A DNA stretch of 52,088 nucleotides, from positions 317,438-369,525 of the forward strand of contig JAUJNT010000001.1 of assembly GCA_030448005.1 (NCBI GenBank), in the 5' to 3' direction. Of the stretch, positions 10,701 to 13,027 are shown one piece after another. A model generated the notes under the pieces. That model was not told the origin of the DNA, made no database searches, and saw only the letters and a list, made by a program, of their open reading frames with translations. Within the stretch, counting starts at the first letter, position 1. The number at the start of each line of letters is the position of its first letter. The position numbers and the translations under genes are program-made. The stretch is from Thermoleophilaceae bacterium (GTDB lineage Bacteria > Actinomycetota > Thermoleophilia > Solirubrobacterales > Thermoleophilaceae).

Positions 10701-11549
10701 TCATTCGTGGGTGCGCGCTGTCGCGTCGAGCAGGGGCTCGAGCACGTGAAGCGCGGTCGATGACGCGGCCTGTCGCTCGAGCGTGTCCTCCGGTGACTCG
10801 AATGCGGTGATCTCGAGACCGACGAGCTCGCAGTCGGCCGCCACGGCTTCCATCAGGTCGAAGAGCTTCTCGGGCGACAGCCCGCCGGGGGCGGGGAACT
10901 GGGCGGGAAAGTCCTCCGGATCGAGCACGTCGAGGTCGATGTGAAGGTAGACCGGCCCCCCGTCGAGCGCGTTCTTGACGGCCACGAGCGTCTCGACCGG
11001 GCTCGCCCCGATCACCGTGACCTCGCTGCCCTCGAGGGTCTCCCGCTCGCGTGCGTCGAGCTGACGCACGCCGGCGAGCACGACCCTTCCGGGGTCGGCC
11101 GGCTTGACCCCCAGGCCGGCGTCCCACAGGCCGCAGGCCCCGGCGAGAGCCATGCCGCCGAGGTAGCCGCTCGCCGTGGTGGCGGGCGTGTTGAAGTCGC
11201 CGTGGGCGTCGAGCCAGAGCACGCGGGCATCGGGGCGGTGGTCCAGCACCGTCCCGAGCGTGGCCAGGGCGATCGAGCACTCCGCCGCCAGCAACACCGG
11301 CATGTTCCCGCCGGACAGCGCGTCGTCGATCTGGCCCCCGGCCTCCAGCAGGCAGCCGCGGGAATCGCTCAGGTCATCGCGGAAGCGCCCCTCGCGGAAC
11401 TCGCCGGGGGCGCCTATCAGGCGCGGCTCGCATCCGAGGCGCTTGCCCACGAGCAGCGCCAGCTCGTGCGCCCCGCGCACGGCGGCGGGGGTGCGGTCCG
11501 AGGTGCGGCAGCGAAGGACGACCAGGGAGGGCGTCAGCGGTTCCTCCAC
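10701..11549 (-). CDS. Arginase/ureohydrolase-family protein with Cys at a metal-ligand site
   Basis: 282 aa, GTG start. Ureohydrolases cleave guanidino groups with a binuclear Mn centre. Ligand motifs present are DAHGD (D114, H116, D118) and IDLDVLDP (D205, D207, with D210). The first ligand motif, normally GGDHS, reads AAECS (88-92), putting Cys91 where His coordinates MnA in arginase and agmatinase. Some actinobacterial arginase-fold proteins carry Cys at this site, so the substrate may not be arginine or agmatine. The start overlaps a short crotonase remnant by 16 bases and no good ribosome site is visible, so translation is probably coupled to that frame. The ABC exporter genes follow. 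Confidence 0.8.
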   Translation of the reverse strand: MEEPLTPSLVVLRCRTSDRTPAAVRGAHELALLVGKRLGCEPRLIGAPGEFREGRFRDDLSDSRGCLLEAGGQIDDALSGGNMPVLLAAECSIALATLGTVLDHRPDARVLWLDAHGDFNTPATTASGYLGGMALAGACGLWDAGLGVKPADPGRVVLAGVRQLDARERETLEGSEVTVIGASPVETLVAVKNALDGGPVYLHIDLDVLDPEDFPAQFPAPGGLSPEKLFDLMEAVAADCELVGLEITAFESPEDTLERQAASSTALHVLEPLLDATARTHE

Positions 11550-11638
11550 TCCGGCTCGCGTCTCTCGACGTTGCGGTCCAGGGTGATGGTGGCCACGCCG
11601 CCGGGGGCCACGTCGTAGAGGATCTTCTCGTAGGGCAT
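11534..11638 (-). pseudogene. Enoyl-CoA hydratase N-terminal remnant
   Basis: A 34-codon frame with an ATG and a good GGAGG site nine bases upstream. It encodes MPYEKILYDVAPGGVATITL followed by DR, the standard opening of crotonase-family enoyl-CoA hydratases. The expected PE-K-x-NAL continuation is replaced by unrelated codons and a TGA that overlaps the arginase-family start. The first 22 codons look like the intact start of a lost crotonase gene; the rest was deleted. It may survive because it now provides translation initiation for the downstream gene. It begins 12 bases after the oxidoreductase gene ends. Confidence 0.75.
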
Positions 11639-11650
11639 CCCGCTCGCCTC

Positions 11651-13027
11651 CTACAGCCCGTACTCCTCCAGCAGGTCGAGCCAGACCTCGCTGCGGGTGG
11701 GGAAGGAGGGCACGGCGTGCCAGAGGCGCTCCAGCGGAACCTCCCCCACCACCGCGATCGTGGCGGCGTGCAGGAAGTCGGCCACCTCGAAGCCCGAGAA
11801 GGTGGCGCCCACGATCACGCGGCGGTCCTCGTCCACCACGAGCCGCGTGACGCCGGGCACGTTGCGCCCATAGAAGCTGGCGCCGGCGTTCCCAGAGGTG
11901 TCGCGGTCCACCGTCCTCACGTTCAGCCCGGCAGTCCGAGCGCTCTCGACGGTGTGGCCCACCGCCGCCACCTGCGGATCCGTGAAGATGACCCGCGGCG
12001 AGAGAGCCCCGTCCTCGGTGGCCTTCGCATCACCCCCCAGGATCACCGTGGCGGCCACCCGGCTCTGGTACTTGCCCATGTGCGTGAGCAGCGAGCGGCC
12101 GTTGACGTCACCGATCGCATAGAGCCAGTCGCCCTCCACGCCGCTGGCACGCATGTGATCGTCCACCTCGATCGACTCGCCCGGCTCGAGGCCGACTGTG
12201 TCCAGCCCGAGATCGTCCGTGTGCGGGCTACGCCCGATGGCCACGACCAGCTCGTCGGCAACCACAGGAGGGCCCTCCCCCAGCGAGATCGTGACCTCTC
12301 CGCCATCTGCGCGGCGCACATCCATGGCCTTCGCGCCAAGGCGGACGTCGACGCCCACCTCTCGCAGCGACTCGGCCACCTGCTCGCTCGCGAACCGCTC
12401 CTCGCGGGGGATCAGCCGGTCCATCGCCTCGAGCAATGTGACCTGCGCGCCGAGCCTTCGCCACGCTTGCGCCATCTCGACTCCGACGACTCCTCCGCCC
12501 AGGATCGCAAGCCTCGATGGGACCACCTCGGCTGTGGTCACCTCCCGGTTGGTCCAGGGCTCTGCCTCCCGCAGTCCCTCGATCGGCGGGATGAGGGCAC
12601 CGCTTCCGGTGGCCACCACGACGGCCCTCTCCGCGACCAGCAGCTCGTCGCCCGCCCTCACCCTGCGCTCCCCTGCCAGCCGGCCGTGCTCACGCACGAG
12701 CTCGATGCCGCGCTTCTCGAGCCACGGGAGCTGGCCCGAGTCGTCGAGATCGTGGATGACCTCGTCGCGGCGAGCGAGGACAGCGGGTACATCGAGCTCT
12801 GCCCTGACCGCCTCTGTCACTCCCGGGACCCGCCTGGCCTCTGCCAGGAGCTCGGCGGGGCGAAGGAGCGCCTTCGATGGCATGCATGCCCAGAACGCGC
12901 ACTCCCCGCCCACCAGCTCCGGCTCCACGAGGACCACTCGCAGCCCGCCGCCCGCGAGCCGACCGGCGCATGCCTCTCCGGCGGGACCGGCACCGATCAC
13001 GATCACGTCGAAGCTGCGCTCGCTCAT
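11651..13027 (-). CDS. FAD-dependent disulfide oxidoreductase (lipoamide dehydrogenase/MerA class)
   Basis: 458 aa; ATG with AGGAG five bases upstream. The FAD Rossmann motif GAGPAGEACAG is at 12-22. The redox-active pair is in GGECAFWACMPSK (C43, C48), which keeps the CxxxxC and PSK spacing of class I enzymes. The NAD(P) motif GGGVVGVEMAQ is near 178-188, and the second FAD motif YAIGDVNG near 300. The C-terminal interface has HAVPSFPTRSE instead of the usual HxHPTxSE, so the catalytic His-Glu spacing is longer than in lipoamide dehydrogenase. No E2 or lipoyl genes are nearby, so a general pyridine-nucleotide-disulfide reductase is more likely than a dehydrogenase-complex E3. Confidence 0.85.
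   Translation of the reverse strand: MSERSFDVIVIGAGPAGEACAGRLAGGGLRVVLVEPELVGGECAFWACMPSKALLRPAELLAEARRVPGVTEAVRAELDVPAVLARRDEVIHDLDDSGQLPWLEKRGIELVREHGRLAGERRVRAGDELLVAERAVVVATGSGALIPPIEGLREAEPWTNREVTTAEVVPSRLAILGGGVVGVEMAQAWRRLGAQVTLLEAMDRLIPREERFASEQVAESLREVGVDVRLGAKAMDVRRADGGEVTISLGEGPPVVADELVVAIGRSPHTDDLGLDTVGLEPGESIEVDDHMRASGVEGDWLYAIGDVNGRSLLTHMGKYQSRVAATVILGGDAKATEDGALSPRVIFTDPQVAAVGHTVESARTAGLNVRTVDRDTSGNAGASFYGRNVPGVTRLVVDEDRRVIVGATFSGFEVADFLHAATIAVVGEVPLERLWHAVPSFPTRSEVWLDLLEEYGL

Follow-up and report, generated by a model that had tools for sequence, protein, structure and literature searches.

A crotonase gene cut to its two ends by in-frame deletion within an overlapping gene row in a Thermoleophilaceae genome

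Results

A 34-codon ORF between the lpd-like and arginase-family genes

The window (i.e., the whole stretch of 52,088 nucleotides of Thermoleophilaceae DNA that was analysed) contains, on the minus strand at positions 11534-11638, a 34-codon ORF with the translation MPYEKILYDVAPGGVATITLDRNVERREPEWRNR, as reported in the first-pass annotation of this DNA. The good ribosome site assigned to this ORF in that annotation was confirmed, corresponding to an AGGAGG sequence (11647..11652, minus strand) that ends 8 nt ahead of the ATG start codon, overlaps the stop codon of the preceding gene and is predicted to form an anti-SD duplex of -10.3 kcal/mol. The preceding gene (11651..13027, minus strand), found 12 nt upstream of the ORF, encodes a dihydrolipoyl-dehydrogenase/mercuric-reductase-like flavoprotein (PF07992 and PF02852) and is referred to here as the lpd-like gene. 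The ORF is followed by an arginase-family gene (10701..11549, minus strand; PF00491, E 2.1e-26), the putative GTG start of which (11547-11549) lies within the last codons of the ORF.

Where canonical arginases have a GGxHS-like metal-ligand motif, the arginase-family protein of the window (10701-11549, minus strand) presents AECSIAL, and its relatives present GECS, GDCS or, in the case of G186, GDPS. As such, the usual first metal-ligand His seems, from the alignment, to be replaced in 18 arginase-family sequences.

Both ends of a crotonase gene are retained

Examination of G004, a genome of the same genus, revealed an lpd-like gene (82% identical to that of the window), an intact 261-codon crotonase gene and an arginase-family gene (81% identical to that of the window), in the same order as in the window. 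Codons 1-21 of the 34-codon ORF (MPYEKILYDVAPGGVATITLD; 11576..11638, minus strand) correspond to the start of the G004 crotonase gene, with codons 2-21 showing 85% identity at both the amino acid and nucleotide levels. The first-pass annotation had matched the first 22 residues to a crotonase start; the match itself was upheld, although it covers 21 rather than 22 codons when G004 serves as reference. It had also considered the rest of the crotonase gene to be missing, which proved incorrect, since the last 10 codons of the ORF, ERREPEWRNR, together with its stop codon (11534..11566, minus strand), are the crotonase gene's own 3' end, reading EKREPEWRNR* in G004. Relative to the G004 gene, the net loss is 227 codons (681 nt) and is in frame. 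Judged from this alignment, the 34-codon ORF is a crotonase gene cut to its two ends by internal in-frame deletion. In terms of the lpd-like gene to remnant spacer (11639-11650, minus strand), 12 nt are found in the window vs. 54 nt in G004, while the start codon is ATG in the remnant and TTG in the G004 crotonase gene. An lpd-like gene is found upstream in three of 13 other genomes of the family (G004, G001 and G023).

With the same neighbours and with homology at both gene ends, the remnant can be classified as a decayed crotonase orthologue. It cannot be counted as a functional PF00378 (ECH_1) member, given that the codons of the catalytic core are gone; rather, it is a non-enzymatic micro-frame, with no room for a crotonase active site. 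A Pfam search with the 34-residue sequence returned no family at E <= 1, nor was any family found at E <= 0.001 in an NCBIfam search, while the best match in another genome was to the congener G002 (E 1.4e-5). At codon positions 1 and 2, the remnant is 0.875 identical to G004, as compared to 0.89 for both neighbouring genes. The remnant is found in one genome only, and its undecayed codons fit a recent event and constraint equally well.

Origin of the junction codons

Between the two ends of the remnant lie three junction codons, CGC AAC GTC (R-N-V; 11567..11575, minus strand). In the intact crotonase genes of G004 and G002, the junction 10-mer ACCGCAACGT is found again at codons 151-154 (YRNV), such that the junction codons are probably the mid-gene R152-N153-V154 (G004 numbering). 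CGCAACGT was, moreover, present in 29 of the 39 YRNV-like sites among 46 loci of relatives. When the codons of the G004 crotonase gene were shuffled 5000 times, the 10-mer appeared in 0.24% of the shuffles and the bare 7-mer CGCAACG in 12.5%, meaning that the 7-nt core alone proves little. Derivation of the junction R-N from codons 26-27 (TRNAL) is a less likely possibility, this origin matching 7 nt, as opposed to the 10 nt matched by the mid-gene origin. Because the junction RNV matches the mid-gene YRNV, the history probably involved two in-frame deletions, removing codons 22-151 and 155-251, or else a single event with a copied patch.

Distribution of the crotonase gene at this locus

The arginase-family gene was detected in 14 of 31 genomes of the family, that containing the window included (E <= 1e-40), and in all 13 others a crotonase gene is found directly upstream, although in G003 this gene is known only by its last 51 codons due to a contig end. 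Crotonase codons are present at the locus in all four congeners (again, in G003, the last 51 only). Across the order, the arginase-family gene was detected in 51 of 232 genomes. When 50 of these (all save G118) were examined, a crotonase gene was found directly upstream in 45 of the 49 genomes other than that of the window, with two of the 45 being cut by contig ends (G003 and G099). As such, the deletion of a crotonase gene proposed in the first-pass annotation is strongly borne out by orthologous loci, where the intact gene that it advised seeking is indeed found. In none of these 49 genomes was the short frame found, such that neither of the two findings named in that annotation as refuting it, a conserved stand-alone peptide or loci that never contained a crotonase, is borne out. 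The recurrent adjacency of the two genes in 45 of 49 genomes suggests that their products serve a common pathway.

No adjacent upstream crotonase gene was seen in the remaining four genomes (G049, G119, G207 and G141, the last offering only 428 bases upstream), and tblastn searches to E 10 yielded no convincing crotonase trace upstream of the arginase-family gene in any of them. The best trace in G207 (E 0.096; 36% identity over 50 residues) lies some 220 nt upstream, in a region where long frames are on the opposite strand, while that in G119 (E 0.033) is antisense to the arginase-family gene.

Full-length orthologues of the crotonase were found in 22 of the 30 other genomes of the family (E < 1e-100). 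The genome containing the window (3.23 Mb in 9 contigs, 96% complete and 2% contaminated, with the window on a contig of 1.05 Mb) encodes four PF00378 (ECH_1) crotonases. As their identity to the G004 query is only 34-37%, no second copy of the orthologous crotonase was found in this genome by searches using that query and PF00378.

The overlap with the arginase-family gene predates the deletion

As the first-pass annotation had stated, the 34-codon frame stops inside the first codons of the arginase-family gene, with the two overlapping by 16 nt. These 16 nt are, however, base for base identical in G004, where the crotonase gene is intact, and the overlap thus predates the deletion. The description of a truncated crotonase gene joined to the arginase-family gene accordingly has to be abandoned, since both crotonase ends are in place and the overlap is ancestral. 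In both the window and G004, the genes present the same-strand stop/start overlap that marks coupled gene pairs.

Arginase start codons were next compared in 46 crotonase/arginase pairs, the window included, with the end of the crotonase stop codon as the reference for positions. The arginase frame is in register with positions -16 and -4 in 39 of these pairs. In the other seven it is not, as in G005, a genome of the family in which the pair has moved apart, such that the overlap is dispensable within the order. Among the 39 in-register pairs, usual start codons are found at both positions in 11, at -4 only in seven, at -16 only in 21 and at neither in none, a distribution for which Fisher's test, ignoring kinship, gives p 0.002. 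In seven of the 21 pairs with a start at -16 only, the crotonase stop codon is TAG or TAA, making NTGA impossible there; a few of the 21 have a further start downstream (e.g., G012, at -1). The window belongs to these 21, its only usual arginase start being the GTG at -16, with CTG found at -4. This makes the GTG at 11549, inside the last codons of the crotonase gene, the likely start of the arginase-family gene. At the same time, a GGAGG sequence 5 nt ahead of the CTG of CTGA, seen in both the window and G004, makes a CTG start possible.

Predicted ribosome supply to the arginase-family gene

Predicted anti-SD pairing is stronger at the remnant start (-10.3 kcal/mol) than at the arginase GTG (-3.0 kcal/mol), while the TTG start of the G004 crotonase gene is predicted to pair at -6.3 kcal/mol. 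Given the strong site of the remnant and the weak site of the GTG, delivery of ribosomes by the remnant to the arginase start is plausible. RNA folding predicts that the GTG pairs with remnant codons 18-19, pairing that translation of the remnant would open; the predicted fold is no more stable than those of shuffled sequences (z 0.05 and -0.10). A review (PMC12548453) describes delivery of ribosomes by short frames to the gene that follows, and coupling is also said there to weaken as the overlap grows beyond -4 nt. On that description, a -16 overlap is not ideal.

Discussion

Comparison of orthologous loci demonstrates the deletion, the retained frame, the ancestral gene order and the ancestral overlap. 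The account that we consider likely builds on these. In the ancestor, the lpd-like, crotonase and arginase-family genes would have formed a row in which the crotonase end overlapped the arginase start. In the lineage of the window, 227 of the 261 crotonase codons would then have been lost by internal in-frame deletion, probably in two steps, with the start, the stop and the overlap being spared. The strong ribosome site of the remnant most likely still supports its translation, which would bring ribosomes to the weakly marked arginase start or unfold it, a role that would earlier have fallen to the intact gene, with selection presumably acting to keep the remnant frame. Whereas the first-pass annotation had the remnant now supplying ribosomes to the next gene, the fact that the overlap predates the deletion fits better with the remnant having kept a supply that the intact gene may already have given.

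The same locus could also be read as an inert scar, left by a chance in-frame deletion, with the arginase-family gene being translated independently, its start being either the -16 GTG or the CTG within CTGA. Retention of the net frame has a one in three chance in the absence of selection, a point that counts against the account favoured here, and the GGAGG ahead of CTGA in both the window and G004, the unexceptional predicted fold and the seven of 46 pairs that are out of register likewise agree with an inert scar. CTG is, however, a poor start codon, all 21 of the 39 in-register pairs that lack a usual start at -4 have one at -16 and, if two deletions occurred, the frame was kept both times. 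Overall, an inert scar seems unlikely. Going beyond continued ribosome loading by the remnant, it could be proposed, albeit only tentatively and with clearly more doubt than belief, that selection for arginase expression shaped the decay itself, each deletion being frame-keeping, so as to leave a minimal 34-codon ribosome-loading leader, the ends of which are the ribosome site and the overlap.

An assembly error or a minority strain variant would be a different kind of explanation, the genome probably being metagenome-derived. The nearest named relatives are indeed metagenome-assembled Thermoleophilaceae (e.g., JACCUO010000038.1), and all four congeners hold crotonase codons at the locus; yet the contig is 1.05 Mb long in a genome of 9 contigs and the net loss preserves the frame exactly, rendering this explanation improbable. 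Least credible of all is retention of the 34-residue peptide as a functional micro-protein. Although the frame is intact, the ribosome site strong and the codons undecayed, the sequence amounts to the N-terminal stretch of an enzyme plus its C-terminal tail, matches nothing in Pfam (E <= 1) or NCBIfam (E <= 0.001), and was detected in none of the other 49 genomes examined within the order.

The locus adds an instance to event types that are already known, namely, internal in-frame loss of a crotonase gene within a conserved overlapping gene pair. As a clean natural instance of a gene lost within an overlapping row, with both of its ends and the downstream overlap surviving, it would make directly testable whether translational coupling limits how operon genes can die. 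No description of a decayed gene retained as a coupling leader was found among the papers listed in literature searches, as judged by titles and the openings of abstracts.

In terms of known systems, both remnant ends align with the orthologous 261-residue crotonase of the crotonase/enoyl-CoA hydratase family (PF00378) encoded at the same locus in relatives; by contrast to members of that family, the remnant is without 227 codons and hence without the catalytic core, and is matched by no Pfam or NCBIfam entry. The co-directed stop/start overlap, found in 39 of 46 pairs in the order, resembles systems of overlap-based translational coupling and termination-reinitiation (PMC6728339, PMC10666635 and PMC12548453). 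In place of ATGA, the window has a usual start at -16 and a CTG at -4, and coupling here is putative. Finally, like the short upstream ribosome-delivering ORFs presented in PMC12548453, the remnant is short, has a strong ribosome site and overlaps a weakly marked start; unlike these, it is what erosion has left of an ordinary enzyme gene.
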